Positions 15,970 through 40,657 of a stretch of 64,000 bases of DNA are shown in pieces. The notes under the pieces were generated by a model, which saw only the letters and a program-made list of their open reading frames with translations, searched no databases and was not told the DNA's origin. Made by a program: the position numbers and the translations under genes. The stretch lies in contig JAVJSI010000010.1 in assembly GCA_040219515.1 (NCBI GenBank), positions 1 to 64,000 of the forward strand, given 5' to 3'. The stretch is from Acidimicrobiales bacterium. Lineage in GTDB: Bacteria; Actinomycetota; Acidimicrobiia; Acidimicrobiales; Aldehydirespiratoraceae. The stretch's first letter is position 1, and every line of letters begins with the position of its first letter.

Positions 15970-15987
15970 GGGTTGCGCTCGCGTCGG

Positions 15988-17394: not shown

Positions 17395-17439
17395 CGGGTC
17401 CCCCTCCTGGTTCGTCGCCGGACAATAGCGCTGATCGAC

Positions 17440-17468
17440 TTAACAGTGTTAACCACCCGCGATAGGTT
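17440..17468 (+). promoter_or_regulatory. Promoter with overlapping palindromic operator
   Basis: TTAACA (17440-17445) and TAGGTT (17463-17468) are separated by 17 bases, an ideal actinobacterial sigma-70 spacing for the plus-strand carotenoid oxygenase gene. The -35 box is the left half of a palindrome TTAACA-G-TGTTAA (17440-17452), the size expected for a small TetR operator. The site also lies 46 bases upstream of the minus-strand binding-protein gene, so one regulator could control both directions. Confidence 0.65.
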
Positions 17469-17490
17469 CGGGTCGAACCGAGGGGGACGA

Positions 17491-20399: not shown

Positions 20400-20411
20400 G
20401 GCTCGTCCCCG

Positions 20412-21868: not shown

Positions 21869-21877
21869 CGGACGGTC

Positions 21878-21883
21878 ACGGTA
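21878..21883 (-). promoter_or_regulatory. -10 box TACCGT before livG
   Basis: TACCGT on the minus strand, nine bases before the ATG of the LivG gene, in the 23-base gap after the SDR gene. It fits the leaderless pattern seen across the window. Confidence 0.45.
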
Positions 21884-21891
21884 GGCCGTGG

Positions 21892-22680: not shown

Positions 22681-23321
22681 GACCGGAGAGTCTTGCGCAC
22701 CACAGTGCCGTCGAAGGAGATGCGCGCCGCCCCCGGGTCGATGTCGGCCTGGTCGTGAGAAACCCACACGACCGTCTGGTGCGTCGCGCCGTGAAGCCGA
22801 TCGCGGATGAACGCGCGGCCGGCTTCGTCGATCGCGGCGAGTGGTTCGTCGAGCAGCAGCACCTCGGCGGGGGTGGCCAGGGCTCTCGCGAGCGCCGCTC
22901 GCTGGCGTTGTCCGACGGAGAGTTCGGCCGGCCGGCGTCGGGAGAGGTCGGCGAGTCCCACTGCGTCGAGGTGGGAACGAGCGGCGGCGCGGGCCGGACG
23001 GGCCCGCTCGCCCCGCCGCCGAGCCGGGAACGCGACGTTGTCGAGTACCGACAGGTGGGGGAACAGACGGTGATCCTGGAACGCCATGGCGATCGGGCGC
23101 TGGTGGGCGGGAACGAACCGGCCGTCGGCGGGGGCGTCGACGATCCGACCGTCGAGCTCGACGGTCCCGTCGTCCAGCGCCTCGAGACCGGCGATGAGCC
23201 GGAGCAGCGTCGACTTCCCGACGCCGTTCGGACCGACCACGAATGTCACGCCGGCGCCGATCTCGAGGTCGATGTCGAGTGCGAGTTCGCCGCGGGTCGA
23301 GCGGCCGTGGACCGAGATCAT
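22677..23321 (-). CDS. modC: Molybdate-type ABC importer ATPase, ModC-like without TOBE
   Basis: 214 residues. Walker A GPNGVGKST, Q-loop in MAFQDHRLFPHLSVLDNV (typical of ModC-type ATPases), a variant signature LSVGQRQR, Walker B LLLDEPLAAID and VSHDQ. Standard ModC has about 350 residues with a C-terminal TOBE domain that binds molybdate; here the protein ends right after the ATPase fold. I start at the ATG of 23319-23321 because it overlaps the ModB stop (ATGA); a GTG four codons upstream is possible. A TOBE domain is found instead on the regulator at 24819-25208. Tungstate or sulfate transport is an alternative. Confidence 0.85.
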   Translation of the reverse strand: MISVHGRSTRGELALDIDLEIGAGVTFVVGPNGVGKSTLLRLIAGLEALDDGTVELDGRIVDAPADGRFVPAHQRPIAMAFQDHRLFPHLSVLDNVAFPARRRGERARPARAAARSHLDAVGLADLSRRRPAELSVGQRQRAALARALATPAEVLLLDEPLAAIDEAGRAFIRDRLHGATHQTVVWVSHDQADIDPGAARISFDGTVVRKTLRS

Positions 23322-24106
23322 CGCGTGAGCCACCGGCCCCGCAGCACCGCGAGCACGCTGAGGCTCACCGCCAGCAGCAGCACGCTCACGGCGATTGCGG
23401 TCTCCGGGTCCTGTTCGAGGGCGAGAAAGGTCTCGACCGGCAGCGTCCGGGTTCGGCCGCCGAGGCTGCCGGCGAAGGTGATCGTGGCCCCGAACTCACC
23501 GAGCGCCCGAGCCCAGGACAGCGCCACGCCGGCGGCCACCGCCGGTCGCAACACCGGCAGGGTCACGTGGACGAAGGTCCGCCACGGCGATGCGCCAGTG
23601 GCGGCGGCTGCCTCTTCGAGGTCGACGCCGCCGTCTCGCAATGCCGACTCGACCGTGGTGACGAAGAAGGGGAGGGCCACGAACGACGCCGCCACCACGG
23701 CGCCGGCGGTGGTGAAGGGGAGCGTGACGCCGAGCCCGCGGTCGAGCCATTCGCCGAAGAGTCCGCGACGGCCGAGGGCGAACAACAACGCGGTGCCGCC
23801 GACCACCGGCGGCAGCACCATCGGGAGGAGGACGAGGACCCGGAGCGCGCTGATGAGGGGATGGTCGTGGCGGGCGAGGACCCACGCCAACGGAAGGCCG
23901 AGGACGATGCAGACCAGCGCGGCGCTCAGCGAGACGATCAACGAGATCCGGACGGCGTCGAGGATCTCCGGCGAGGTGAGCCGGGTCGCCATCGTCGACC
24001 ACGGGGCGCGTTGGAGCAGTCCCACCACCGGCAGCGCGAGCAGGGCCACACCGACGACCGCAGGGATGGCGATCGGGAGGGGTGTGCGCCTCGGCGGTGC
24101 GGTCAC
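23318..24106 (-). CDS. modB: Molybdate-type ABC importer permease, ModB-like
   Basis: 262 residues, about six membrane helices. The EAA-like loop that contacts the ATPase is visible (EEAAAATGASPWRTFVHVTLP), followed by GVALSWARALGEFGATITFAGS, a stretch strongly typical of ModB and CysT/W permeases. The GTG start at 24104-24106 overlaps the ModA stop (GTGA). It forms the channel of the importer with ModC. Confidence 0.9.
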   Translation of the reverse strand: MTAPPRRTPLPIAIPAVVGVALLALPVVGLLQRAPWSTMATRLTSPEILDAVRISLIVSLSAALVCIVLGLPLAWVLARHDHPLISALRVLVLLPMVLPPVVGGTALLFALGRRGLFGEWLDRGLGVTLPFTTAGAVVAASFVALPFFVTTVESALRDGGVDLEEAAAATGASPWRTFVHVTLPVLRPAVAAGVALSWARALGEFGATITFAGSLGGRTRTLPVETFLALEQDPETAIAVSVLLLAVSLSVLAVLRGRWLTR

Positions 24107-24822
24107 GAGACGATGAACCCGTCGTCGGACAGGAGTCGACGGCCGGCCGGCGACCGGAGGAAGTCGACGATCTCGTGGGCGGAACCGTGCACGGCAACGG
24201 CGAGATACTCGGTGACGAACGGATCCAGCTCGGCGGCGCGAAGGGTCTCGAGTCCGAGGTCGGCGGCGTCGGTGGCATAGACCAGCCCGGCGTCCAGCTC
24301 GCCGGTTTCGATCTTCAGGGCGAGGGCTCGCACGTTGGGCTCCTCGGTGTCGACGGCGACGTCGATCGAGAGCGCGGTCTCGGCCTCGGCGGCCAGGCGT
24401 CCGCACGGTACTTCGGCGGCGCACACCCCGAGGAGGAGGGTGGGGTCCTCGAGGTCGGCCAGGTCGTCGAGTCGGCCCGGGTTGCCGGGGGCGAGGGCGA
24501 CGACGAGCCGATTGCCGGCGATGACGACGGGCTCGCCCTCGACGAGTCCTCGGGCGACGGCGTCCCGCATCGTCTCGGCGTCGGCGGTGATCAGCACGTC
24601 GGCTCGGGCCCCGTCGGCGAGTTGGCGCACGAGACGGCTGCTGCCGGCGATCACCCAGGCGGTCTCGGTGCCGAGCGCGTCGTCGACCGGTTCGGTCACG
24701 CCGGTCAACGACGAGGGCACCATCGCCACCGTGCCGGTGTCGTCGCCGCAGCCTGGCGTCAGGAGCGTGAGGGTGGCCAGGAGGCCGGCCAGCCCGCGCC
24801 GCAGCGGTGTCGTGAAGATCAT
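24103..24822 (-). CDS. modA: Molybdate-type substrate-binding lipoprotein, ModA-like
   Basis: 239 residues, the ModA length. A lipoprotein signal ends in LLTPGC with Cys25. The mature part has the ModA order of segments: a Ser pair in IAGSSRLV, ADVLITADAETM, GNRLVVALAPG, and GELDAGLVYATDA. Molybdate or tungstate binding is inferred from these and from the operon. The ATG overlaps the regulator stop (ATGA). The N-terminal oxyanion-binding serine region is less conserved than in enteric ModA, so the exact anion is uncertain. Confidence 0.85.
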   Translation of the reverse strand: MIFTTPLRRGLAGLLATLTLLTPGCGDDTGTVAMVPSSLTGVTEPVDDALGTETAWVIAGSSRLVRQLADGARADVLITADAETMRDAVARGLVEGEPVVIAGNRLVVALAPGNPGRLDDLADLEDPTLLLGVCAAEVPCGRLAAEAETALSIDVAVDTEEPNVRALALKIETGELDAGLVYATDAADLGLETLRAAELDPFVTEYLAVAVHGSAHEIVDFLRSPAGRRLLSDDGFIVS

Positions 24823-25208
24823 GGTGTCTCGATGACCACGTTCGTCGACTTGATGGACGCGACGGCGGGCGACCCCACGTCGAGCCCGAGCGCGTCGACT
24901 GCCTCGGACGAGATCAGCGAGACGATCCGGTGGGGACCGGCCTGGATCTCGACCTGCGCCATCACCTTGTCGCGTACGACCCGGGTCACGAGCCCGGGGA
25001 ATCGGTTGCGGGCCGAGACCGACGCTGCGCCCTCATCGGGTTGCTCGCCCAGTTCGAGGGCGACTCGGGCCAGTTCGGTACCGAGTACCTCGCGATGGCC
25101 GCCCTCGGTGCGGGAGGTCTCGAACCGGCCCTGGTCGGCCCAACGGCGGACGGTGTCCACGCTCACGCCGAGAAGTCGGGCGGCTTCGCCCATACGAAAC
25201 TGGTGCAT
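24819..25208 (-). CDS. MerR-like helix-turn-helix regulator with TOBE (molybdate-binding) domain
   Basis: 129 residues. The first half is an excisionase/MerR-type winged helix (MGEAARLLGVSVDTVRRW, then a TEGGHRE wing). The second half (about 68-127) is a TOBE/Mop-type domain (NRFPGLVTRVV, VMAQVEIQAG, IVSLISSEAVDALGL, PAVASIKSTNVVIE), which binds molybdate or tungstate. It is the first gene of the modABC operon, coupled by ATGA to modA. It probably senses intracellular molybdate and controls its own operon. Two adjacent palindromes at 25234-25250 upstream are possible operator halves. The ATG at 25206-25208 lies eight bases after a TACTCT -10 box. Confidence 0.9.
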   Translation of the reverse strand: MHQFRMGEAARLLGVSVDTVRRWADQGRFETSRTEGGHREVLGTELARVALELGEQPDEGAASVSARNRFPGLVTRVVRDKVMAQVEIQAGPHRIVSLISSEAVDALGLDVGSPAVASIKSTNVVIETP

Positions 25209-25216
25209 GCGGGCAC

Positions 25217-25222
25217 AGAGTA
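25217..25222 (-). promoter_or_regulatory. -10 box TACTCT of the mod operon
   Basis: TACTCT on the minus strand, eight bases before the ATG of the TOBE regulator; leaderless arrangement. Confidence 0.5.
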
Positions 25223-25233
25223 TCAAGAATCTT

Positions 25234-25250
25234 AGATCTGCGAGATATCT
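25234..25250. promoter_or_regulatory. Paired palindromes, candidate operator
   Basis: AGATCT (25234-25239) and AGATATCT (25243-25250), each self-complementary, lie three bases apart just upstream of the mod operon -10 box. The AT-rich pair stands out in this GC-rich DNA and sits where a repressor would block the promoter. It does not match the classic ModE box closely. Confidence 0.4.
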
Positions 25251-25283
25251 GGTCCGGTCCACCGGCCGTGCAGGGTCCCGCCG

Positions 25284-25289
25284 TAGTTT
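25284..25289 (+). promoter_or_regulatory. -10 box TAGTTT of the MscS gene
   Basis: TAGTTT seven bases before the ATG at 25297; leaderless arrangement, divergent from the mod operon. Confidence 0.45.
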
Positions 25290-25296
25290 CGCGGGC

Positions 25297-26379
25297 ATGA
25301 CCTCCTTCCAGGCCGCCGAACCCGCCGTTGCCGATGCCTGTGGCGATGAAGATGCCTCGTTCCTCTGCGAGAAGGTCTTCGAGTGGACGGACAGCGAGAC
25401 CCTCGCCCGGGCGGCGGAGTGGCTCCTCGACCGCCCCATCCGGATCGTCTTGATCGTGATCCTCGCCTGGGTGGCCTCCCGGGTGCTGCAGCGTGTCATC
25501 GGCCGGTTCGTGAGGCGGGTGGCCGCGTCGCCGACCGATCAGCGCTTCCAGGCCCTACGCGAGCGGGGCCCCGGCCGGCTGCTCATCGAGGAGACCGAAC
25601 AGAAGCGGGCGTCGGCCCGAGCCGAGACGATCGGGCTCGTCCTGCGGAGCCTCGCCGCCGCCGGCGTGTGGTCGATCGCCTCGCTGTTGGTGCTCGGCCA
25701 ACTCGACATCGACCTGGCCCCGCTGATCGCCGGCGCCGGCATCGGCGGCATCGCCCTGGGGTTCGGTGCGCAGTCCGTGGTGCGCGATTTCCTGTCCGGA
25801 CTGTTCATGCTGATCGAGGACCAGTACGGGGTCGGCGACATCATCGACATCGGGCCGGCCACCGGCACCGTCGAGAAGGTCTCACTCCGCTCGACGGCCA
25901 TCCGAGACATTCAGGGAACGGTGTGGCACGTGCCCAACGGCGAGATCACCCGGGTCGGCAACTTCAGTCAGCTCTGGTCGCGAGCGCTCATCGACGTCGA
26001 GGTGGCCTACGACACCGACATCGAGTTCGCCCAGGGCGTGATCCAGCGCGTGGCCGACGAGTTGTGGGACGACGGGCGGTGGGGCGGCGACGAGGTCATG
26101 GAGCGCCCCGAGGTGTGGGGCGTCCAGAGTCTGGGCTCGGACTCCGTCGCCATCCGACTGGTCGTCAAGACCGAACCGTCGGAGCAGTGGAGGGTGGAAC
26201 GCGAGCTCCGCATGCGGCTCAAGAACGCCCTCGACGCGGCGGGCATCGAGATCCCGTTCTCACAGCGCACGGTCTGGCTCCGCCACCAGGGCGACCATCC
26301 GGTACCGCCGGCGCCCGACCCCGCTTCGGTCGTCACCCATCCGCCGGCCGAGGCGCACGACGACGAAGCGTCGGTCTAG
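25297..26379 (+). CDS. MscS-family mechanosensitive ion channel
   Basis: 360 residues. An N-terminal helix (about 45-65) is followed by a second and the pore helix rich in Gly/Ala (LAPLIAGAGIGGIALGFGAQSVVRDFLSGLF), then the beta domain with YGVGDIIDIG, TGTVEKVSLRSTAIRD and WHVPNGEI, all diagnostic of MscS. The C-terminal domain ends in a Pro/Ala-rich tail. It should open under membrane tension to release solutes. Start at the ATG after a TAGTTT box; the long frame upstream is shadow of the mod operon. It is divergent from the mod operon and unrelated to it in function. Confidence 0.92.
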   Translation: MTSFQAAEPAVADACGDEDASFLCEKVFEWTDSETLARAAEWLLDRPIRIVLIVILAWVASRVLQRVIGRFVRRVAASPTDQRFQALRERGPGRLLIEETEQKRASARAETIGLVLRSLAAAGVWSIASLLVLGQLDIDLAPLIAGAGIGGIALGFGAQSVVRDFLSGLFMLIEDQYGVGDIIDIGPATGTVEKVSLRSTAIRDIQGTVWHVPNGEITRVGNFSQLWSRALIDVEVAYDTDIEFAQGVIQRVADELWDDGRWGGDEVMERPEVWGVQSLGSDSVAIRLVVKTEPSEQWRVERELRMRLKNALDAAGIEIPFSQRTVWLRHQGDHPVPPAPDPASVVTHPPAEAHDDEASV

Positions 26380-28826: not shown

Positions 28827-31800
28827 TCAGTTGTCGCTGCGGTCGATCGCCCGGTCGTCGGTGCCGAGGTAGCTCGCGATGACGAGTGGGTCGTTGCGCA
28901 CGGTCTCGGGATCGCCCTCCGCGATCACCGACCCGGCCTCGAGGCAGTACACCCGATCGCTGATGCTCATGATCAACGGCATGTCGTGTTCGATGATGAG
29001 CATCGAGGCACCCATTTCCCGACGGATCTCCTGAATGAGCGGCCCGAATGCCTCGGTTTCGCGCTGGGCGACGCCGGCCGTCGGTTCGTCGAGGCACAGC
29101 ACGTCGGCATCGACGGCGAGGAGGCCGCTGAGCTCGACGATGCGTCGGGTGCCGGTCGACAGATCGGAGATGAACGAATCGGCATAACGACCGAGGCCCA
29201 GGAAGTCGATGAGCTCGTTGGCTTCGCTGCGCTTGCGGCGTTCCGTGGCCATGTCGAGGAAGAGCGCGCTGCGAGCGAACGACGAGCGATGCCGGCCTTC
29301 GAGCGCGACCTGGATGCACTCGCGCACCGTGAGCTCGGGAAAGAGCGTGGCGGCCTGGAAGGTGCGGCCCAGGCCGAGCGTGGCGCGCACGGGCGAGCCG
29401 AGCGACTCGACGTTTCGGCCCAGCAGTTCGATCCCGCCCGCGGCGGGCACGTAGCCGCCGATCGCGTTCATGAGGGTGGACTTGCCGGCACCGTTGGTGC
29501 CGATCAGCCCGACGATCTCGTCCTTGCCGACCTCGATGCTGACGCCCGACACCGCGACGTTTCCGCCGAAGCGGACGCTCACGTCATGGGTGGCGAGGGT
29601 GACCGACCGCCCGGCGGCCGAGACGTTGAGGTTCGGATACTCGCGAGCAGGACGGGGCGCGGCAGCGGCGACGTCACGGTGGAACCATCGGGTGATGAGC
29701 GCGGGCCACAGGAACGGGATCACCGGCTCGAGGAGCAGGTAGAGCGAGTAACCGGCCTTGGTGCCGCGCGAACCGAGGTGGGCAGCCGAGGTCTGCGAGA
29801 TCTCGACGAGCACCGCGAGGGCCCAGACACCCGAGACGGCGGCGAGGGCCATGTAGATGCCGAACCAGCCGTTGTCGCCGTCGCCGAGGAGGTGGTCGTA
29901 GGCGGTGTAGGCGGTGACACCGATGCTCGCGACCTTCAGGACGATCGTGATGCCGCTGAGGACGAACTCGACCATCGGCGAGGTCCGGTCGGGGGCCGGA
30001 GTGGTGGCCTCGCCGCCCCGTCGGAGTGCGTCGGGAGCGGTCGCTGAGCGGCCGACCCTCAAGTGCTCGTAGCGGGGCTCGACCCGGGCGACGATGCCGT
30101 CACGGACGCGGTAGAAGAGTTGGACGAAGCCGCCCGGGAAGTACATCAGCATCAAGAGGAAGCCGATGCTGCTGGTGAGCAGGCTGATCAGGGTGTTGTC
30201 GGGGAAGAGCGTGGGCAGTCCCTTCACCCAGAATGCGCCGATGACCGGGCCGATGACCGACCCGAGGCCACCGATGACGACCATGTTGACCACCTGTAGC
30301 GAGTCGGCGATCTGGAAGTGCGCCTCGCTGAAACGGATCTGCCGGGTGGCGTTGCCGAAGATCGCCCCGCCGAGACCGGCGATGCCACCGGCCACCGCGA
30401 AGGCCGTGAGCTTCATCCGTACGGGCGACACGGTGTAGGCGGACGCGGTGTCGGCGTTGTCACGCACGGCGATGATCGACCGGCCGACACCCGACCGCCG
30501 GAGTCGCCCGACGACCAGGATCGTGAGGGCGAGACAACCCACCGAGAAGTAGAAGAAGGTGCGCTGGTCCTGCAGGTCCCACCCGAAGAGCCAGCCGCGT
30601 TCGAAGGTGACCGAACTCTCGTTGTTGCTGAAGAACGGACGTTGGTAGATGTACTTCTCGGCCGCGATGGCGAAGGCGAACGTGGAGATCGCGAGCATGA
30701 TGCCGCGCACCCGGAGCGCGCCGATGCCGGTGATGGCCGCGACGCCGGCGGTGAAGAACACGGCCAGGATGATCGACGGGATCGTCGGGATGCCGCTCCA
30801 CTCGACGTCGAGGAGTCGGTTGCTGCCGTAGCCGATGTCGAGCTCGACGCCACGGTTGAACGCCGCAGCACTCAGCGCACCGATGCCGGCGTAGGCCATC
30901 TGGGCGAGCGAGACCTGGCCCGACCAGCCGGTGATGACCGTGAGCGAGGCGGTGACGATCGCGAAGGCGGCGATGGTGCTGTAGAGGAAGAACTGCGACG
31001 GTTTGATCCGGTCCGGTGGCATGTCCCAGAACCAGATGAACCGGTCGGCCCACTCGAACAACGTCTCGTGGTGCAGGGTGGCCAGGACCACGACGACCAA
31101 GAGGAAGCCGATGGCGATCCTCGGCATGTGGCGGATCCACCACACCCGCTGGAGATGCACGGGCAGCGGTGTGATCTTCGGCGCGAAGCTCAGCGGCGAT
31201 TCGTCGTTGTTGCCTCGACTCTGCCAGTAGAGCGCCACGATGACGGCGATGAACACCAGCAGCGTGGACAGGCCGGGGTCTCGCGTGAAGTTGAAACCGA
31301 AGATGTTGTCGGCCAGGGCGATCGCTATGCCGCCGGCCATCGCGCGGGGAAACGAGCGCATACCGGCGATGACCGCCGCGGCGAGCGCATTGGTGAGGGT
31401 GAACGGGCCCAGGTTCTCGATGCCCGTCGCCGCCTTGCCGCTGCTGAGCAGGATCATCGACAGGGTGGCGATGAAGCCGCCGAGCGTCCACACGACGGTG
31501 GAGACCACGTGGGGATTGATGCCCGAGAGACGGCTCAGCTCCGGGTTGTCGGCCGAGGCGGTGATCGACTTGCCGAAGGTGGTGCGGCTCATCATGAGCC
31601 CCAGCAGGATGGCGACGATCGGGACGACGAGAAGGATCTGGACCTCGGGGCCCTTGATCAGGATGCCGTCGTCCTCGGCCACGCCGAGGAACTCGAGTGC
31701 GGAGAATTCGCCCCCGACGCCGTCCCAGCTCTTTCCGATGGCCGCGGGATAGCGGGTCTGGGAGCCCTCGATCTCGGGGAACGCCAACAACACGATCGCG

Positions 31801-32156
31801 CGCCAGAAGTCGGCTATGGCCACGGTGGCGATGAGCAACACGATGCGCGGTCGATGGAAGAGCCGTTTGACGACCGTGACCTCGGTGACGAAGCCGAGCA
31901 GGGCGCCGACGATCAGGGAAAGGGCCAGTGCCGGCCAGAACGGCCAACCCCAGTTGATCATCAGCAGGGCGAACAGTGCGGCGCCGGGCAGGCCCATGTT
32001 GCCCACCGCGAAGTTGATGACCCGGGTGGAGCGGTAGATGAGCACGATGCCCATGGCCAGGAGCCCGAAGACCAGGCCCTGGACGATCGTCCAGAAGAGG
32101 ATCTGGCGCGTGACCCACGCGCCGAGCAACATCGTGGTGCCGAGGGTGGCGTCCAT
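28827..32156 (-). CDS. Fused LivH-LivM-LivG ABC importer protein
   Basis: 1109 residues carrying three normally separate HAAT subunits in one chain. LivH permease at about 15-335 (INFAVGNMGLPGAALFA; SADNPELSRLSGINP). LivM permease at about 344-675 (GWSGQVSLAQMAYAGIGAL; RDNADTASAYTVSPVRMKL). An extra hydrophobic stretch of about three to four helices at about 725-840 is not part of known Liv proteins. A LivG ATPase follows from about 857, with GTNGAGKS at 886-893, TFQAATLFPELTVREC, a variant signature LSTGTRR, LCLDEPTAG and IIEHDMPLI. Its ATG shares one base with the stop of the MFS-LivF gene. No binding-protein gene is adjacent. Continuous reading with good motifs throughout argues against a frameshift artefact. 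Confidence 0.9.
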   Translation of the reverse strand: MDATLGTTMLLGAWVTRQILFWTIVQGLVFGLLAMGIVLIYRSTRVINFAVGNMGLPGAALFALLMINWGWPFWPALALSLIVGALLGFVTEVTVVKRLFHRPRIVLLIATVAIADFWRAIVLLAFPEIEGSQTRYPAAIGKSWDGVGGEFSALEFLGVAEDDGILIKGPEVQILLVVPIVAILLGLMMSRTTFGKSITASADNPELSRLSGINPHVVSTVVWTLGGFIATLSMILLSSGKAATGIENLGPFTLTNALAAAVIAGMRSFPRAMAGGIAIALADNIFGFNFTRDPGLSTLLVFIAVIVALYWQSRGNNDESPLSFAPKITPLPVHLQRVWWIRHMPRIAIGFLLVVVVLATLHHETLFEWADRFIWFWDMPPDRIKPSQFFLYSTIAAFAIVTASLTVITGWSGQVSLAQMAYAGIGALSAAAFNRGVELDIGYGSNRLLDVEWSGIPTIPSIILAVFFTAGVAAITGIGALRVRGIMLAISTFAFAIAAEKYIYQRPFFSNNESSVTFERGWLFGWDLQDQRTFFYFSVGCLALTILVVGRLRRSGVGRSIIAVRDNADTASAYTVSPVRMKLTAFAVAGGIAGLGGAIFGNATRQIRFSEAHFQIADSLQVVNMVVIGGLGSVIGPVIGAFWVKGLPTLFPDNTLISLLTSSIGFLLMLMYFPGGFVQLFYRVRDGIVARVEPRYEHLRVGRSATAPDALRRGGEATTPAPDRTSPMVEFVLSGITIVLKVASIGVTAYTAYDHLLGDGDNGWFGIYMALAAVSGVWALAVLVEISQTSAAHLGSRGTKAGYSLYLLLEPVIPFLWPALITRWFHRDVAAAAPRPAREYPNLNVSAAGRSVTLATHDVSVRFGGNVAVSGVSIEVGKDEIVGLIGTNGAGKSTLMNAIGGYVPAAGGIELLGRNVESLGSPVRATLGLGRTFQAATLFPELTVRECIQVALEGRHRSSFARSALFLDMATERRKRSEANELIDFLGLGRYADSFISDLSTGTRRIVELSGLLAVDADVLCLDEPTAGVAQRETEAFGPLIQEIRREMGASMLIIEHDMPLIMSISDRVYCLEAGSVIAEGDPETVRNDPLVIASYLGTDDRAIDRSDN

Positions 32157-34363
32157 CAGCCGCCTTCTTTGCCGAGGAAGACGGCGCGAGCGAGATCGTC
32201 ACGCTCGGCCAACTCCTGGGCGGAGCCCTCGAAGCGGACCTGGCCCTTCTCGAGGAAGATCGCCCGGTCGGACACGGCCAGGGCGACGTTGAGCGACTGC
32301 TCGACGATGATCATCGTCTGTCCGGCCGCGCGCAGGCTGTCGATGTGAGTGAGCAGGTCCTGCACCACCGTGGGCGCCAGTCCGAGACTCAGCTCGTCAA
32401 TGATCAGCAGGTCCGGCTCGTGCAGCATGACGCGGGCGAGCGCCAGCATCTGCTGCTGGCCGCCGGACAGATCACCGGCTCGTTCGTCGAGCCGATCCGC
32501 GAGCGCCGGGAACATCTCGAGCACCCGAGCGATACGGCGGCGGACGTCGGCGGGGTCGTCGCGGTACTGGTAGGCGCCGACCTCGAGGTTGTCGCCGATG
32601 GTCAGGCTGGGCCACACGCCCTTGCCGCCGGGCAGCATCTGGATGCCGCGCTTGGCCCGTTCTTCGGGGCTGGCGAACGTGCAGGTCTTGCCGTGGTAGC
32701 GCACCACGCCGCGCTCGGGGGTCTCCAGACCGGCGATCACCTTGAGGATCGTCGACTTGCCCGCACCGTTGGTCCCCAGCAGGGCGAGCGTCTCGCCCTT
32801 GGCGACGTCGAACGACACGTCGAAGAGGACCTGGACCTGGCCATAGCTGAAGTCGATGTGGTTGACCTGCATCACGGGGATGTCGACGTCGTTGGACACG
32901 AGATCGAAGTAGGCCTGCTCCTCCTGGAGCTCCTCGACGACGAGCGAGAGGTCTCGGCGGATCGCCCGGCTTCCCTTGATGATGTTGTAACCGCCGATCG
33001 GCATCGCGACGATGGCCAGTGAGGTGATGGCGAACCTTTCGCCCCACTCGTCCTGCAGGAATCCGCTGAGCAGGCCGCCGCCGAGGCCGCCGATCGCCAC
33101 CATGAAGAAGGTGATGATCGCGGTGCCCATGCCCCGGAGTCGGTAGGGGACGACGCCCTGCACGGACGGCTGGATCATCGCGAACGCGGCGCCCAGGAAT
33201 GTGCCCGACAGCGTGGCAAGGATGGCGAACAGCCACACGTTGGGCATCGCGTACTGGATGGGGATGAGGATGCCGACCGGGATGAGGAGCGAGCCGACGA
33301 TGCGAAGGGCGCGATCGGGCGCCTTGCGGAACGTTCGGTCGAAGCGGCTGCCGATGAAGGGGAGGAACAGGATGATCAGCGCGCCGGTGGGCGCCACCGC
33401 GTAGCCGCGTTCGAGCGCATCGAGCCCGAACTCCTCCTCGAGGTAGAAGGACTGGATCGAGCCGGCCGGGAAGAGGGCGAAGCCGATCGCCGCCAGGCCG
33501 ATCGTCATGGAGCGGACGGTGTCGATGCGCCAGATGCGGTTGAACGCGGCGCCGACGGAGATCGGGATCTCGTCGACGTCGCTGCCGAAGCTGTGCCCGA
33601 GCACGTCCTTCTTCTCCCACTGACCTCGCTCCGGTTCGGGGATGGCGAAGGCGAGGATCGCCAGTACGGCGACGGGGATGCCCAGGAGCAGGTAGGCCCA
33701 TCGCCAGCCCTCGACGCCGCCCGCCCACACCGCGATCGCGCCGACGAGTACAGGGCTGGCCGCGTTGAAGACGCGCCCGACCGCGGCGTTGAGCGAATAC
33801 ATCCGACCGCGGATCGCGATCGGGTACGCATCGGCGAGCAATGTCGAGTGGACGGTGATGGTGTTCGCCTTGGACATGCCCGTGAAGAAGCGGGTCCAGA
33901 AGAACATGAAGGCGTTGACGGCGAGGCCGCCGAGGAAGGCGAAGATCGCGAAGCCCATGCTCGCGATCGCGACGATCGGTCCGCGCTTGTAGCGGTCGGC
34001 GAGGTAGCCCATGGGGCCGGCGCCGAGGACGAAGAACACGATCGAGGCCACCGAGATCTGCGTGATGGCGCCATCGGAGACCCCGAAGGTCTCGCCGATG
34101 TCCGGGCCGAGGATGTTGACCGCCGCGCTCTCGAGCTCGTCGAGGGAGTTGAGGGCGAGCAGCACGAGGAAGGTGTAGGAGCCGCCCTTGGCGAAGCCTT
34201 CCTTGAGGGTCATCTCCTCGGACCCGACGCCGGGGAGGAGGTCGTCGGCGAAGAGCACCTCCTTCGAGCGGGCGGCCTGCGCGGCCTGCCGGGATGCCTC
34301 CTCGTCGAGCACCGATGCCGTCAGCGACCTCGCCGACCCCGCGTCTGTTTGCGAATCGCTCAC
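32156..34363 (-). CDS. MFS transporter fused to LivF-type ABC ATPase
   Basis: 735 residues. After a 55-residue hydrophilic N-terminus, about 60-480 is a 12-helix MFS fold (MGYLADRYKRGPIVAIASMG in the helix 2-3 loop; RGRMYSLNAAVGRVFNAASP; GSRFDRTFRKAPDRALRI). A short linker leads to a LivF ATPase from about 497: Walker A GTNGAGKS at 530-537, QMLPGGKGVWPSLTIGDNL, LSGGQQQML, LLIIDELSLGLAP and IVEQSLNVAL. It is coupled (TGATG) to the LivHMG fusion, so together the two genes hold both permeases, both ATPases and a complete MFS carrier. GTG start at 34361-34363 with a GGGGGA ribosome site. Role of the MFS part is unknown: second path, sensor or scaffold. Confidence 0.9.
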   Translation of the reverse strand: MSDSQTDAGSARSLTASVLDEEASRQAAQAARSKEVLFADDLLPGVGSEEMTLKEGFAKGGSYTFLVLLALNSLDELESAAVNILGPDIGETFGVSDGAITQISVASIVFFVLGAGPMGYLADRYKRGPIVAIASMGFAIFAFLGGLAVNAFMFFWTRFFTGMSKANTITVHSTLLADAYPIAIRGRMYSLNAAVGRVFNAASPVLVGAIAVWAGGVEGWRWAYLLLGIPVAVLAILAFAIPEPERGQWEKKDVLGHSFGSDVDEIPISVGAAFNRIWRIDTVRSMTIGLAAIGFALFPAGSIQSFYLEEEFGLDALERGYAVAPTGALIILFLPFIGSRFDRTFRKAPDRALRIVGSLLIPVGILIPIQYAMPNVWLFAILATLSGTFLGAAFAMIQPSVQGVVPYRLRGMGTAIITFFMVAIGGLGGGLLSGFLQDEWGERFAITSLAIVAMPIGGYNIIKGSRAIRRDLSLVVEELQEEQAYFDLVSNDVDIPVMQVNHIDFSYGQVQVLFDVSFDVAKGETLALLGTNGAGKSTILKVIAGLETPERGVVRYHGKTCTFASPEERAKRGIQMLPGGKGVWPSLTIGDNLEVGAYQYRDDPADVRRRIARVLEMFPALADRLDERAGDLSGGQQQMLALARVMLHEPDLLIIDELSLGLAPTVVQDLLTHIDSLRAAGQTMIIVEQSLNVALAVSDRAIFLEKGQVRFEGSAQELAERDDLARAVFLGKEGG

Positions 34364-34505: not shown

Positions 34506-35432
34506 ATGGCATTCGAAACGACGACGCACGACGTGATCGCCGGAGTCGACCTGCACGGCCCCGTGGCGGTGGTCACCGGCGCAACCACGGGCCTCGGTCG
34601 CGAGACGGCGCGTACCCTGGCCTCGGCCGGGGCCCATGTCGTCGTCTGTGGAAGGACGGCGGCGAAGTGCGAGGCGGCGATGGAGGCGATCGTCGAGGCC
34701 CATCCCGACGCATCGCTCGAGTTCGAGGCCTTCGACCTCGGCGATCTCGCGACCGTTCGCGTCGCCGCTGACGCGATCGCAGAGCGACACCCGTCGATCT
34801 CCATCCTGATCAACAACGCCGGTGTGATGTTCACGCCCGAGGGGCGAACCGCCGACGGGTTCGAGACCCAGTTCGGCACGAACCATCTCGGGCACTTCGT
34901 CTTCACCAATCACCTGCTGCCCTCGCTGCGAGCGGCGGCGCCGAGCAGGATCGTGAACCTCTCCAGCGCGGGCCACGGTATGAGCGACATCGTGTGGGAC
35001 GACCCGAACTTCGACGCCCGCCCCTACGACAAGTTCGAGGCCTACGGGCAGTCGAAGACGGCCAACATCTTGTTCACCGTCGGGCTCGAGGCCCGCGTCG
35101 CCACCGACGGCGTCCGGTCCAACGCAGTGCACCCCGGCATGATCATGACCGACCTGGCCCGCCACATGGACCAGCGGGACATGGAGGAACTCGGCGCCCG
35201 CGCCTCGAATCGGGCCGGGGAGGGCAGTGGCGGCGGACTTCCCCGGTTCAAGTCGATCGAGCAGGGCGCGGCCACCTCGGTCTTCGCTGCGGTGTCGCCG
35301 TCCCTCGAGGGAGTCGGTGGCCGCTACCTCGACGACGCCGATTTCGGTGACCCTGCGGCCTACGCGGTCGCCCCCGACGCGGCCGAGCGGCTGTGGACGA
35401 TGTCCGAGAGGCTCGTCGGCGAGACCTTCTGA
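34506..35432 (+). CDS. Short-chain dehydrogenase (retinol dehydrogenase-like SDR)
   Basis: 308 residues, longer than classical SDRs and close to the retinol-dehydrogenase/WWOX-like group. TGATTGLGRETARTLA, NNAGVM, NLSSAGHG and YGQSKTANILF (Tyr-x3-Lys) are present, with a PG motif in VHPGMIMTDL. An NADP(H)-dependent oxidoreductase on hydrophobic alcohols or ketones is likely. It is divergent from the fusion transporter operon and converges on a LuxR-type regulator with seven bases between the genes. The ATG lacks a clear ribosome site. Confidence 0.9.
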   Translation: MAFETTTHDVIAGVDLHGPVAVVTGATTGLGRETARTLASAGAHVVVCGRTAAKCEAAMEAIVEAHPDASLEFEAFDLGDLATVRVAADAIAERHPSISILINNAGVMFTPEGRTADGFETQFGTNHLGHFVFTNHLLPSLRAAAPSRIVNLSSAGHGMSDIVWDDPNFDARPYDKFEAYGQSKTANILFTVGLEARVATDGVRSNAVHPGMIMTDLARHMDQRDMEELGARASNRAGEGSGGGLPRFKSIEQGAATSVFAAVSPSLEGVGGRYLDDADFGDPAAYAVAPDAAERLWTMSERLVGETF

Positions 35433-35439
35433 GGTCCGC

Positions 35440-36477
35440 TCAGCCGAGCAGTCGACGGAGGGCGACCACCGCCGCGGTGCGACTGTCGACACCGAGTGAG
35501 CGAAAGACGCTCTCGAGGTGCTTCTTCACGGTTCCCTCGGCGACATCGAGGCTCCGGCCGAGTTGTGCGTTCGTGCCGCCGCTCTCCGCCAGCGCGATCG
35601 CGATCTCGGCCTGGCGTTGCGTGAGCCCCAGGTCGCGCAGCGGCGCGGTGTCCAGCTCCGTCGGTTCGATTCGTCGCACGGCGACCACCGTGGGACCGCA
35701 CACGACCGGGTGCACGACACAACGCCAGATGTCGCCGCCGATCACGACGTCGTGACTCGTCGCCGCCGCATCGTCCTCGTCGATCCCGTCGGTCCCCAGC
35801 AGCAGTGCGACGACTTCCTCGGGCATCCGTTCGCCCGCTCGCAACGGTGACGAGAGTTCGGCCGACGAAGTCGCCTCGATCACGCCGTCGGAACGCACGG
35901 TGACCACCGCCCAGCGATCGCGGTCGGCCTCGGCCGCCATCGCCCGAGACCGGTCGTCGTGCAGGACCATGCGGTGGTGCATGGCGAGGTGGCCCTCCAG
36001 CGAGTTGAGTACCTCGACGTCGCGGTCGCTGAACTCGCCCTCGTCCGGGGACCGGTTGAGGGCGTAGCCCACGGTGACGTCCGACGGCGAGGGCAGCGAC
36101 ATGACCATCTGGTAGCGGACCCCCATCGGCCGGTAGAACTCCCGGTACAACGTGGTCCCGATGATGTCGTCGTCGGCGTCACAGAACCGCTGGGCCCCGT
36201 GGCCGATGGGGCCACCCAGGTCGTCGATGAGTGGATGCTCGTGCATGTTGCGGTCGAAGGCGGGCTTGAGCCGAGCCATCAACGCCTCGTCGGGCACCGG
36301 CACCATGACGTACCGGAAGTCGCCCGTGGCCCAGGCGAGGTCGTTGAACGAGGCACTGGTGCAGTGGACGAGTCGGCGCAGCAGGGCGAGCACGTCGGCG
36401 AAGTCGGGCACCGGTGTCGCCACCAGGAGGTTGGCCGCGTCCAGCACGGCAAGAGTGTCGTCAGGATCGAGGGCCAC
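35440..36477 (-). CDS. LuxR-type (GerE HTH) transcriptional regulator with unknown sensor domain
   Basis: 345 residues. The C-terminal 65 residues are a GerE/LuxR helix-turn-helix (LGLTQRQAEIAIALAESGG; NAQLGRSLDVAEGTVKKHLESVFRSLGV). The N-terminal 230 residues look like a sensory domain of GAF-like or unrecognised type, with Cys/Trp-rich helices, and lack the response-regulator phosphorylation acids. The GTG start is nine bases after a TAGCGT box. An inverted repeat TACGTC-GAAT-GACGTA overlaps the spacer just upstream, consistent with autoregulation. It may control the SDR or the divergent lipoprotein gene. Confidence 0.85.
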   Translation of the reverse strand: MALDPDDTLAVLDAANLLVATPVPDFADVLALLRRLVHCTSASFNDLAWATGDFRYVMVPVPDEALMARLKPAFDRNMHEHPLIDDLGGPIGHGAQRFCDADDDIIGTTLYREFYRPMGVRYQMVMSLPSPSDVTVGYALNRSPDEGEFSDRDVEVLNSLEGHLAMHHRMVLHDDRSRAMAAEADRDRWAVVTVRSDGVIEATSSAELSSPLRAGERMPEEVVALLLGTDGIDEDDAAATSHDVVIGGDIWRCVVHPVVCGPTVVAVRRIEPTELDTAPLRDLGLTQRQAEIAIALAESGGTNAQLGRSLDVAEGTVKKHLESVFRSLGVDSRTAAVVALRRLLG

Positions 36478-36486
36478 GGTCCGCCG

Positions 36487-36510
36487 ACGCTATCTACGTC
36501 GAATGACGTA
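36487..36510 (-). promoter_or_regulatory. -10 box TAGCGT and adjacent operator-like palindrome
   Basis: TAGCGT (36487-36492, minus strand) lies nine bases before the GTG of the LuxR-type gene. Directly upstream, TACGTC and GACGTA (36495-36500 and 36505-36510) form a perfect six-base inverted repeat around GAAT, where a regulator would contact RNA polymerase. Confidence 0.5.
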
Positions 36511-36602
36511 TGGCGAAACCCCTTCGAGCTGTCGAACATGATGGCGGGCCGCGAGTGTCCCGGCGCTGCGTCGCCGGGTCTTGCCGATGATCGAGGTGGC
36601 CA

Positions 36603-37697
36603 GTGAAACGAACGAACCGAAGCCCGCTCCTGGTGATCGCCGTCGCGGCGGCGCTCTGCGTTGCCGCAGCCTCGTGTGGCGATTCGTCCGACGAGCCGTC
36701 GGGCGCGCCGCCGATCGATACGTCCACCGATGGGGGCGAGACCGACACGACACTCGATGCGCCGCCGGATACCACCGACGGCGGGAGCGACGCCGACCCG
36801 ACCGAGGCCGCGGATGTACTCGCTCCGGTCGCCACTTTCCCCATCGACGACGGCGAACTGATCAACTCGTTGGCCGTCTCCCCCGACGGCGCGACGATCG
36901 CCGTGTCGTTGCAGGAAGCCCTCGGCGAGCCCGTGACGATTCGGCTCTACGACGCCCTGACGGGTGAGGCCGGCGCGGAGACAACGTTCGATGCGATCGG
37001 CATTCGCCCGCTCTACTGGATGGCCGACAATCGTGTGGTGGCCGTCGACGAGGTCGACCTGCTCTGGCACAGCTTCGACGGCGAAACGCTCGACGAGTTC
37101 CCGGCCCAGCCCTTCGAGTACGACTGTCGGTCGACCGAAGTCGATCTGATCGCCGGCTACGCCTACTCGATCGTCGAGAACGAGAGCGCTGTGTGCCGGA
37201 CCGATCCCGACACCGGTGAGATGGTGCGCACCGCCCCCGGCACCGTGACCGACGTCGAGTCGATCTGGGCTCGACCCGGGACCGGCGAGGTTCTGGTGGC
37301 GCACTACCCCGATCCCGACGGTCCACTCGAACTTCTCGCCCTCGATGGTGCCGAAATGGCCGCCGGCGAATCGACCGCCCTGGCCTTCGGCGACCAGGTG
37401 CGAGCGGTCGGCGCGACGACCTGGGTCGACTACTTCGAGCCGCGCGAGTCACTTCTGCAGCCAGGGTCCCTGCCCGCACCCGACATCCGCGACACGTTGT
37501 GGGAGAGCACGGCCGGCACGTACTTCGTCTCGGGCAACGGCAACGACGACAGCATCTACATCGACGCCGCCGACGGCACTGTGGTCGGCACCACGGCTGC
37601 CGCATGGAACCCCGCCCTCTTCCTCGGCTGGTCGGCCGACGACTCGGTCATGCTCCGGCTCGGTCTCGACTATCAGATCGAGCGCTACGAGTTCTGA
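36603..37697 (+). CDS. Lipoprotein with beta-propeller-like repeats, unknown function
   Basis: 364 residues. A lipoprotein signal ends in AAASC with Cys25, followed by a Thr/Asp/Gly-rich linker to about 75. The rest shows repeated strands of the WD40/YVTN type (LAVSPDGATIAVSLQ; RLYDALTGE; LGWSADDSVMLRL), so a propeller fold on the outer face of the membrane is likely. I do not recognise a family. GTG start at 36603 after GAGGTGG. It is divergent from the LuxR-type gene and its last 13 bases overlap the converging nitroreductase gene. Confidence 0.8.
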   Translation: MKRTNRSPLLVIAVAAALCVAAASCGDSSDEPSGAPPIDTSTDGGETDTTLDAPPDTTDGGSDADPTEAADVLAPVATFPIDDGELINSLAVSPDGATIAVSLQEALGEPVTIRLYDALTGEAGAETTFDAIGIRPLYWMADNRVVAVDEVDLLWHSFDGETLDEFPAQPFEYDCRSTEVDLIAGYAYSIVENESAVCRTDPDTGEMVRTAPGTVTDVESIWARPGTGEVLVAHYPDPDGPLELLALDGAEMAAGESTALAFGDQVRAVGATTWVDYFEPRESLLQPGSLPAPDIRDTLWESTAGTYFVSGNGNDDSIYIDAADGTVVGTTAAAWNPALFLGWSADDSVMLRLGLDYQIERYEF

Positions 37698-38425
37698 GCA
37701 TCGGGGGCGCTCGGCGGACCCGCTCGGGTGTGCCGGGTGCCGGCGGGGTCGACGGCCCAATCGGCCGGGGAGCCCCACACCCCTTCGTAGACGAGCTCGG
37801 ACAGCGGCACCCGACGAACGGGTCCGTGTGACCCCTCGGGCCTGCCCAGGGTGATCGTGGCGGCGATCGTCGCGTCGTCCGGAAGCTCGAGCAGCGCGGC
37901 GAGTTCGTCGTGCACGTGGGCGTGCCACATCGTGAGCACCCCGCCGTAGCCGAGTCCTCGTGCCGCGAGGAGCAGGTTCTGGCACGCGGGGTAGATCGAT
38001 GCGCCCTCGGTCGGGTTCGGTGGACGGACCCGGACCAGGCAGGGCAGCACGAGCACGGGGACCCGGTCGATCTCGTCGACGTAGCGCTCCATCGAGCGGG
38101 CCATACGAGCCTTGGGGGAGTCCGGGTCGTTGCCCGATCCGCGGTCGTACCCTTCGCGGGCTCGTTTGGCCGCCCACACGGTGCGGGCGCCCTGACCGAT
38201 GAGGGCCTTCGCTTCGGCCGCGACCGGACCGTCTCGCAACACGATGAACCGGAACGGTTGCCGATTGGATCCGCTGGGCGCCCGGGTGGCCGCGAAGAGC
38301 ATGTCCCGCAGCACCGAGTCGGGGACCGGATCGTCGGTGTAGCGCCGGATCGACCGGGTGGTCGTGAGCCCTTCGAGCAGTCCGACGGTGTCGGCGGCGA
38401 CCGGACGGTCGCGTGGCGAGGTCAC
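37685..38425 (-). CDS. Nitroreductase family protein
   Basis: 246 residues. The N-terminal RSIRRYTDDPVP and ATRAPSGSNRQPFRFIV segments bind FMN in nitroreductase-fold proteins, and the later LLLAARGLGYGGVLTMW segment completes the site. It reduces nitro, quinone or related groups with NAD(P)H. The GTG start overlaps the stop of the phosphotriesterase-like gene (GTGA), making a two-gene operon. Some members of this family are F420- or FMN-dependent and dehalogenate or cleave rings, so the reaction is open. Confidence 0.9.
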   Translation of the reverse strand: MTSPRDRPVAADTVGLLEGLTTTRSIRRYTDDPVPDSVLRDMLFAATRAPSGSNRQPFRFIVLRDGPVAAEAKALIGQGARTVWAAKRAREGYDRGSGNDPDSPKARMARSMERYVDEIDRVPVLVLPCLVRVRPPNPTEGASIYPACQNLLLAARGLGYGGVLTMWHAHVHDELAALLELPDDATIAATITLGRPEGSHGPVRRVPLSELVYEGVWGSPADWAVDPAGTRHTRAGPPSAPDAQNS

Positions 38426-39450
38426 GCGCCGTCCGGCGGGGAGGACTGAAGCGACGCGCCGTCTCTGCTGAGACCCACGCCTTCGAAGAAGTGTCGCGGG
38501 TTGTCGTGGGTGAGTCGGTGGATGTCGTCGTCGCCCACGCCGAGGTCGGTCAGCTTCGGGACGATCTCCTCGTCGAATCGGGTGGGCACGAACTGCTCGG
38601 CGATGCGGGAGCGCAGGGCGACCGGCCACGGGTTGCCCTTCCAGCACCAGACCGAATCGTGTGACACCACGATCCGGTCGCCGGCGCCGGCCGCGACGAG
38701 ACGGGCGAGGGCCGCGGCGCGGTCGTCGTCGGCGACGGTGGGGATGCCGAATCGGTCGAACCCGAGATAGCTACCGCCGCCCGCGATGCGCAGGTGGTAG
38801 TCGGTGTCGGTCGACCCGCAGGAGTGACCGATGACGATGCGACGGGCCGGTACGCCGGCCTCGACCAGCACCGTCTGTTGGAGGTCGCCGAGGGTGCCGT
38901 CCTCGGTGTGGGTGGTGACCGGAACCCCGGTTGCCACCGATGCCCGTGCGGCGGCGGCGAACACGGCGGACTCGTGCGTCGTGATCGAGCCGAGGCCCGT
39001 GCCGACCTTGATGATGCCGGGGCGAACGCCTGTCGTCCCGATGCCCTCGGTCAACTCGGCGATGAAGAGGTCGGTCATCACCGCGCTGATGTCCTCGAAG
39101 CGGGCTCGGAAACCCCAGTGCGCGTGGCCGCCCTCGTGCTCCTTGTAGAGCCCGGTCGCGCAGATGATGTTGAATCCGGTGGCCTCGGCGACGGCGACCA
39201 TCAACTCGATGTCGCGGCCGAGGTCGTTGGGGCACGGGTCGATCATCGAGGAGTAGCCGAGCGCCTTGAGTCGCTCGACATGGTCCACGCAGACCCGTGT
39301 CGCCTCGGCTCGGTCGAACGGCTCGTCGGTGGCCGACTCCCATCCCGGGTAGCCGATGGCGAGGTGTTCGTGCATCAGGGTACGGCCGAGTTCGTGCGGG
39401 GCGATCGGCCCGGTCACGGTCTGGATGGTGGGTGGCGGCGCTGCGCTCAT
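38422..39450 (-). CDS. Phosphotriesterase-like metal hydrolase (PTE family)
   Basis: 342 residues. All six metal ligands of the binuclear site can be placed: His27 and His29 (MHEH), bridging Lys148 (IIKVGTG), His181 (THTEDG), His209 (IGHSCGS) and Asp265 (SHDSVW). Family members hydrolyse phosphotriesters, lactones or amides. The rest of the barrel is of normal length. Coupled to a nitroreductase gene, which suggests a shared xenobiotic-like or lactone substrate. ATG at 39448-39450, seven bases after a TACCGT -10 box on this strand. Confidence 0.92.
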   Translation of the reverse strand: MSAAPPPTIQTVTGPIAPHELGRTLMHEHLAIGYPGWESATDEPFDRAEATRVCVDHVERLKALGYSSMIDPCPNDLGRDIELMVAVAEATGFNIICATGLYKEHEGGHAHWGFRARFEDISAVMTDLFIAELTEGIGTTGVRPGIIKVGTGLGSITTHESAVFAAAARASVATGVPVTTHTEDGTLGDLQQTVLVEAGVPARRIVIGHSCGSTDTDYHLRIAGGGSYLGFDRFGIPTVADDDRAAALARLVAAGAGDRIVVSHDSVWCWKGNPWPVALRSRIAEQFVPTRFDEEIVPKLTDLGVGDDDIHRLTHDNPRHFFEGVGLSRDGASLQSSPPDGA

Positions 39451-39457
39451 GAGGGTC

Positions 39458-39463
39458 ACGGTA
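39458..39463 (-). promoter_or_regulatory. -10 box TACCGT of the phosphotriesterase operon
   Basis: TACCGT on the minus strand, seven bases before the ATG; leaderless pattern. Confidence 0.5.
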
Positions 39464-39473
39464 GGCGAACCAT

Positions 39474-39479
39474 TAACCT
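39474..39479 (+). promoter_or_regulatory. -10 box TAACCT of the kinase-like gene
   Basis: TAACCT eight bases before the GTG at 39488. It supports this start over an ATG at 39449, which would overlap the neighbour's start codon. Confidence 0.5.
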
Positions 39480-39487
39480 TCGCACTC

Positions 39488-40657
39488 GTGCCGACCTTCA
39501 TCCCTTCCTCGCCGGCCGACATCACGCCCGAGTGGGTCACCGAGACGATGCGATCCGCCGGCGTTCTCCCCGCCGGAGAAGTGACGGCGGTCGTGGTCTC
39601 CGATCTGGGCGGCGGCGGCACCGGATTCACCGGCGACACGGTGAGGGTGACGCTGAACTACGACGGGGACGGCGAAGGGCCGGCGTCGGTGATCGCGAAG
39701 TTCCCGACGAGTGACCGTCAGACCCGGGGGATGCTCGAGCAGTTCGACGCCTATGCCCGTGAGATCCGGTTCTACCGACACTTCGCGCACCGGATGCCCT
39801 GTCCGGTGCCGGGTTTTCTCGGCGCCGATTTCGACGAGAAGGGGGCCCGCAGCACCGGTCCCCGCATGTCGAAGCTCATCGACGCGTTGCCCGATCGAGT
39901 GCAGCTCGCGGTCACCTACGACGTCACGAAATTCATGCGGGCCACCACCCGTCGCTACGCGCTGCTGATCGAGGATCTCGGCGCGGCGACCACGGTCCAC
40001 GACATGACGGAGCCGCCGAGCGTCGATGGTGTGCGCCGGGCCCTCGAGACACTGGCCGCGGTGCACGCCGAGTTCTGGGACGACCCGTCCCTCGCCGGCG
40101 ACCCGGCCTTTCGACCGATCCTCACGACCACGCCCGGCCTCTACCGCACGGTCGGTCACAAGCGCTGTCTGCCGATGGCACAGACTCGGTGGCGCGACTG
40201 GCTCACCGACGAACAGGTCGGGTTGATACGCGAGTCACTCGACCGTTTCGCCGAGGATGTCGCGATCATCAACGAGCCACTCACGCTCATCCACGGCGAC
40301 CCTCGCTCCGACAACATCTTGTTCCGCGACGACGGTCAGCCGGTGTTGCTCGACTGGGCGCTCACGGGCAATGCCCACCCGGGATTCGACGTCGGCTATC
40401 TGCTGTCGAGCTGTCTCACCGTCGAGCAGGCCGACGATCGCAACGGCCTCGTCGCCGACTACGAAGCCGCGCTCGCCGGTCAGGGTGTGACGACCGATGG
40501 ACGACAACTCCGCACCGTGATCGACTCGACCTATCGGGCGCTGGCGGTGCAGCAGCTGATGAGCATCGTGGTGCTCAACAACGAGAGCTACGGCGACGCC
40601 GGCATCTACGACCTGTGGATGCCCAGGCTTCTCGCCGGTCTCGCCACCGACTGGTAG
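39488..40657 (+). CDS. Aminoglycoside-phosphotransferase-like (kinase-fold) protein
   Basis: 389 residues. The kinase-like fold is shown by LIHGDPRSDNILF (catalytic loop from His269, Asp271, Asn276) and the metal-binding LLDWAL. The N-terminal lobe has a Gly-rich loop (LGGGGTGFTGDTVRV) and a VIAKFP lysine. Such proteins near fatty-acid or steroid degradation genes are the ACAD10-type kinase relatives, but the substrate is unknown, and this is not evidence of drug resistance. The GTG start follows a TAACCT box by eight bases. It converges with the SnoaL-like gene, 18 bases apart. Confidence 0.85.
   Translation: MPTFIPSSPADITPEWVTETMRSAGVLPAGEVTAVVVSDLGGGGTGFTGDTVRVTLNYDGDGEGPASVIAKFPTSDRQTRGMLEQFDAYAREIRFYRHFAHRMPCPVPGFLGADFDEKGARSTGPRMSKLIDALPDRVQLAVTYDVTKFMRATTRRYALLIEDLGAATTVHDMTEPPSVDGVRRALETLAAVHAEFWDDPSLAGDPAFRPILTTTPGLYRTVGHKRCLPMAQTRWRDWLTDEQVGLIRESLDRFAEDVAIINEPLTLIHGDPRSDNILFRDDGQPVLLDWALTGNAHPGFDVGYLLSSCLTVEQADDRNGLVADYEAALAGQGVTTDGRQLRTVIDSTYRALAVQQLMSIVVLNNESYGDAGIYDLWMPRLLAGLATDW

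Follow-up and report, generated by a model that had tools for sequence, protein, structure and literature searches.

The two genes studied here lie on the minus strand of the window (the whole stretch of 64,000 nucleotides analysed, from an Acidimicrobiales bacterium) and join a complete carrier of the MFS type, in frame, to the LivF-type ATPase of a HAAT-type ABC importer. The fusion is genuine and ancient, and it is widely distributed among Acidimicrobiia, with further occurrences in some other actinomycetes. From sequence comparisons, the MFS may be a working side carrier within an importer fed by binding proteins, a reading to which we give about an even chance; beyond the architecture itself, we infer that the MFS assembles with LivHM, that it transports and that it may be coupled to the ATPases. 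Transporters powered by ATP and those powered by gradients usually work apart from each other, and a conserved lineage in which the two kinds are covalently joined is a natural setting for asking if an MFS fold can be gated or powered by an ATPase. The named strains of Embleya and Yinghuangia that carry the fusion make this question testable.

Gene 1 (32156..34363, stop codon included) starts with GTG and encodes a protein of 735 residues, delineated by its open reading frame, Pfam, alignment and an AlphaFold2 model, in which Pfam detects MFS_1 at residues 79-426 (E 3.9e-37) and ABC_tran at residues 514-657 (2.3e-30). The spinster-like MFS domain spans residues 60-465 (32969..34186), with twelve transmembrane helices in the model, and is followed by a linker (residues 466-495, 32879..32968) with a predicted helix at 468-490, in which D471 is invariant among the aligned gene 1 homologues, and by the LivF-type ATPase domain (residues 496-735, 32159..32878), assigned by Pfam and NCBIfam, whose best Foldseek match is 1ji0. 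The model (mean pLDDT 83.5) thus runs from the MFS helices through helix 468-490 into a complete ATPase domain. GTNGAGKS occupies residues 530-537, and the core residues of the Walker and signature motifs are invariant across 57 aligned homologues.

Gene 2 (28827..32156, stop codon included; defined by open reading frame, Pfam, alignment and model) encodes 1109 residues and overlaps gene 1 by the single base 32156, the A of TGATG. Pfam and profile searches place a LivH-type permease domain at residues 1-335 (31152..32156) and a LivM-type one at residues 345-690 (30087..31124), seen by Pfam as two BPD_transp_2 stretches (7.4e-53); the LivG-type ATPase domain (residues 853-1109, 28830..29600), which Pfam, NCBIfam and Foldseek all recover, contains ABC_tran (2.2e-23), the LivG C-terminal motif BCA_ABC_TP_C, GTNGAGKS at residues 886-893 and the signature STGTRR, with Walker and signature core residues invariant across 50 aligned homologues. 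Between LivM and LivG, the predicted model (mean pLDDT 78.3) contains an insert of four extra helices (727-757, 763-788, 797-808 and 816-832; residues 727-832, 29661..29978), found only in the closest clade of the window system. Both permease domains of a HAAT importer are therefore present, together with LivF and LivG ATPases bearing Walker A, Walker B and signature motifs. The best NCBIfam models for the two ATPases are UrtE/LivF and LivG/UrtD, with scores under the equivalog cut-offs. Foldseek searches with both full chains gave ATPase-led matches only and no solved MFS-ATPase chain. An earlier note made from the DNA alone had described an MFS carrier fused in frame to a LivF-type ATPase, a second chain with both HAAT permeases and LivG sharing one base with the first, three to four extra helices and intact nucleotide-binding motifs, and this description agrees with the reading frames, the Pfam domain search that the note had proposed and the models, the helices being four.

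The note had also conceded that its case would fall if the fusion were unique to this assembly. It is known from about 120 loci, mostly in metagenome-assembled genomes (MAGs) of Acidimicrobiia, plus Yinghuangia soli and Embleya sp. NBC_00888, the complete record of which encodes MFS~LivF, LivH~LivM~LivG and a binding protein consecutively; a scan of genome contigs alone yielded 79 distinct loci, nearly all in Acidimicrobiia MAGs, plus Y. soli. The majority of relatives being MAGs, an assembly or sequencing error that removed a stop codon might be suspected; the open frame is, however, common to about 120 loci whose MFS identity falls to about 25-35%, and it is present in both named strains, so that homologues with the same fusion rule out an artefact, which is hardly conceivable. 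Besides the pair of genes described here, the genome of the window has three other full-length copies, one on each of contigs C7, C5 and C1. In a sample of 148 genomes of the class, 46 have an MFS match at E <= 1e-12; the strongest matches lie nearly all in frames of more than 700 residues, except those truncated by contig ends or gaps, and stand-alone MFS relatives are mostly found at the weak end of the scores. Beyond Actinomycetota, occurrence was checked by close-relative peptide patterns and plasmid records. One locus titled Terriglobia bacterium (ALOHA) has the same operon layout and match scores as a marine Acidimicrobiales locus, and its label may be wrong.

Two main gene layouts occur: MFS~LivF with LivH~LivM~LivG (layout I), and LivH~LivM with MFS~LivF~LivG (layout II), as exemplified by the C1 copy; the genome of the window has three systems of layout I and one of layout II. 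Annotation of 124 fused loci, some of which share a genome, with profiles built in this analysis gave 104 without LivG in the MFS chain and 20 with it. A few loci have three separate genes (LivH~LivM, MFS~LivF and LivG). The nearest MFS-less LivF proteins belong to single-chain LivH~LivM~LivF~LivG transporters, to a LivF~LivG protein or to separate genes. Three loci (L176:6414-10364, L177:4497-8336 and L178:4561-8397) encode such a whole Liv importer without an MFS in a single frame of about 1280-1320 residues, and the LivF~LivG protein of L175:5997-8864 has an in-frame N-terminal part that resembles a helical membrane segment, not the MFS.

In the LivF tree, MFS~LivF proteins cluster together with the sole exception of L192, which has LivG as its own gene and falls inside the layout II group, with unfused single-chain forms beside it. 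In a quick MFS tree with denser outgroups, a branch with SH-aLRT 99 sets apart the core fused domains together with the unfused L166 and L198. In L179 (5787-8030) the MFS is also fused to a LivF-type ATPase, but it falls among stand-alone spinster-like proteins, a placement on which another MFS tree agrees. In our interpretation the MFS was captured once, long ago, the ATPase was later lost at least once (L166), and a fusion arose a second time. This last event, at L179, is likely rather than certain, since it is known from one locus only, whose LivF branch is long; the fused MFS domains would then form essentially one lineage plus one apparent second fusion. The two unfused members of the fused lineage (L166:5837-7780 and L198:6529-8046) were found with no Liv genes in their fetched flanks, and L166 retains Arg319, a residue discussed below.

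In the earlier note, the lack of an adjoining binding-protein gene was seen as fitting a receptor job for the carrier domain. The observation holds for the window, where no such gene adjoins the two fusion genes and the nearest one (15991-17439) is part of another Liv cluster; it does not hold for most homologous loci. With a profile that included binding proteins from these same loci, 46 of the 66 layout I loci having at least 3 kb of 5' and at least 6 kb of 3' flank were found to have a type I binding-protein gene no more than 3.5 kb from the fusion gene, on either side of it and on either strand. Of the 20 loci with none within that distance, eight carry the helical insert, that of the window among them, and 12 do not. 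The divergent neighbour of the C5 copy was also matched (E 2e-33) by a profile made without its subgroup, and the neighbour of the C7 copy is a Pfam Peripla_BP_6 protein; assignments for layout II are weak and come from a profile partly built from those loci. Separately, the region 13415-23245 of the window encodes LivH~LivM, a binding protein, LivF and LivG, a Liv-type cluster of more ordinary make-up that has no MFS.

Binding proteins of the same family are encoded away from the fusion genes as well. The genome of the window has seven close members, six of them without a Liv gene in the surrounding 5 kb or so, and members (1 to 22 each) are encoded by all 15 other genomes, selected for having no binding-protein gene in the fetched flanks of the fusion locus. 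In the genome with 22, some adjoin its other fused systems, and four small marine genomes combine a single MFS fusion with one or two binding proteins. The C7-type family occurs in 14 of the 148 genomes of the class sample, 13 of these being among the 27 counted as carriers of layout I (Fisher p 1.7e-10, genomes treated as unrelated). Family membership and this co-occurrence suggest that the orphan binding proteins may pair with the window system, and they supply candidate binding proteins for a large, mostly uncultured group of Acidimicrobiia. Judged by gene content, the importer probably keeps the partners usual for its type, with binding-protein genes that are often unlinked. A receptor role of the MFS fold in place of a binding protein agrees with the absence of an adjoining gene in the window and its closest clade, but such genes adjoin most homologous loci and every searched genome without a linked gene encodes the family elsewhere; the inference from a missing gene fails for these reasons, and we regard this role as very unlikely and have set it aside. 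The genome with 22 family members (that of L025, G510; e.g. L234 and L248) has six layout I systems and one layout II system, a possible hub-and-spoke arrangement in which numerous receptors would serve a small number of transporters.

In the mechanism that we favour, genes 1 and 2 would encode the membrane part and the ATPases of an ABC importer of the HAAT (Liv/Urt) type that depends on binding proteins. LivH and LivM would form the path, LivF and LivG would hydrolyse ATP, and the solute would be brought by extracytoplasmic type I binding proteins, whose genes lie close by or in other parts of the genome. LivF would permanently bear the spinster-like 12-helix MFS on its helical linker and, since it is so tethered, a single complex should hold the carrier next to LivHM. 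Rather than a relic, the MFS would be a working carrier, a side unit of the importer that transports another molecule from the same pathway (a related, an exchanged or a lipophilic one) and whose cytoplasmic gate may be exposed to the ATPase cycle.

The best solved relatives of the MFS profile are HnSpns (6e8j, E 5.7e-21) and SPNS1 (1.1e-19), and positions were compared by alignment to HnSpns, with roles taken from PMC9440201 and PMC13192786. The spinster features described there are the motif A charge relay Asp87-Arg91-Asp142, the Arg233-Gly234 tether between TM6 and TM7, Asp41 in TM1, the proton switch Glu129 in TM4 and an extracellular Asp(TM2):Arg(TM7) pair involving Arg289 (PMC9440201, PMC13192786). 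Together with the twelve predicted helices and the similarity to solved Spns proteins, the window MFS keeps the relay (D123, R127 and D178) and the tether (R246-G247), and has E78 in place of Asp41. The gate residues D123/R127/D178, R185, R221, G247 and R410 are invariant or nearly so across deep divergence. On the other hand, Glu129 corresponds to Lys165, Glu being absent from the commonest residues at this position in both layouts, and Arg289 is replaced by Glu310, although the partner Asp is kept as D97; the Arg of this pair is rare among core fused MFS domains (5 of 57) and frequent among stand-alone relatives (13 of 18). We consequently do not regard the carrier as a true spinster protein. 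By these comparisons the cytoplasmic gate, with its conserved relay and tether, is strongly constrained, and the extracellular gate and proton switch are unlike those of spinster proteins.

Arg319, at the start of TM8 (33407..33409), came out of the residue comparison of fused and stand-alone MFS domains: all 57 core fused domains have it, as does the unfused L166, against 1 of the 18 other stand-alone relatives, and L179 has Ala at this position. The case for reading it as a sign of fusion itself is weakened by L166, which lies within the fused lineage and retains the residue although unfused, and by L179, which was fused separately and lacks it; the residue marks the lineage instead.

For a working side carrier speak the MFS remaining joined to LivF in two main layouts, and apparently joined twice, the retained gate motifs, the association with binding proteins, the catabolic neighbours and a rate of MFS divergence about that of LivH/LivM and much faster than that of LivF/LivG, as expected of a solute-handling part. 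The changes to Lys165 and Glu310 would, however, also suit a carrier turned regulator. The MFS would in that case no longer transport and would serve as a membrane-embedded regulator or scaffold, its conformation, set by a solute or by the state of the membrane, switching the LivF/LivG ATPases or fixing the position of the importer. Loss of the TM4 switch and of the extracellular pair, the direct route to regulation that fusion to a nucleotide-binding domain offers and the new invariant residue Arg319 all fit this possibility. Against it, the relay and tether residues needed for alternating access are kept, acidic residues in TM1 are frequent, and loss of the TM4 Glu is no mark of lost transport, since nearby stand-alone relatives often lack it too; we hold such a non-transporting regulator or scaffold to be possible, if doubtful.

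Another alternative is that LivF and LivG power the MFS, which would then be an ATP-coupled (primary) carrier, acting in addition to LivHM transport or in place of it. The rigid helix predicted between TM12 and the nucleotide-binding domain, the presence of both ATPases on the MFS chain in layout II and the absence of the spinster proton switch are consistent with this, and the authors working on mef(A)-msr(D) proposed an MFS working with separate ABC ATPases (PMC6079230). That precedent is nonetheless weak because deletion of mef(A) left efflux unaffected (PMC6079230). The genes for LivH and LivM, with which these ATPases normally work, moreover always lie next to theirs; we consider an ATP-driven MFS quite unlikely. 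Unlikely as well, if conceivable, is a broader scheme in which the ABC ATPases drive or gate the MFS in one complex, LivHM importing the delivered solute and the ATP-coupled MFS moving another molecule, which would make the system a primary/secondary hybrid served by many dispersed binding proteins.

With known HAAT importers (LivFGHM with LivJ/LivK; UrtABCDE), the system shares LivH/LivM and LivF/LivG and has, likewise by profile, candidate type I binding proteins; it differs by the fusion of the subunits in two chains, the complete MFS on LivF and the often unlinked binding-protein genes. Unlinked binding-protein genes are also a trait of TTT transporters, which are not ABC importers and differ in having no MFS domain. 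In TTT systems such as TphC-TpiBA, binding-protein genes lie mostly apart from the transporter genes and near catabolic genes (PMC8556258). The Spns carriers HnSpns (6e8j), SPNS1 and SPNS2 have in common with the window MFS the motif A relay and the TM6-7 tether, unlike it in the Lys at the TM4 switch, the Glu for the extracellular Arg, the invariant Arg319 and the fusion to an ABC ATPase. In the macrolide efflux pair mef(A)-msr(D) (PMC6079230), an MFS is likewise proposed to work with ABC ATPase domains, but the pair differs in its separate genes, another type of ABC protein, efflux, and the lack of LivH/LivM and of a binding protein. No curated NCBIfam or Pfam model covers both MFS and ABC ATPase in one chain, and no paper on an MFS-ABC fusion family was found in the open-access literature, a well-characterised family of this kind being something that the earlier note had named as a refutation; the MFS~LivF lineage seems undescribed.

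The neighbouring genes offer a hint about the substrate. Near the window operon and its relatives are genes for a PTE-family hydrolase, a nitroreductase, an SDR and an O-methyltransferase; acyl-CoA dehydrogenase genes flank the C7 copy, and the orphan binding-protein genes have P450, RPE65-type oxygenase, amidohydrolase and alpha/beta-hydrolase genes as neighbours. Because of these enzyme genes, which are mixed, the substrate is probably one or more organic compounds other than branched-chain amino acids. Beside the operon, the region 34506-40657 of the window contains SDR, LuxR-type regulator, nitroreductase, PTE-family and kinase-like (APH/EcKL) genes, several of them syntenic in the relatives L022, L025 and L028, suggesting a linked catabolic pathway. 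An MscS-like mechanosensitive channel is encoded by a frame at 24082-26379 of the window, and a relative of this protein lies near the operon in 19 fetched loci, marine ones included.
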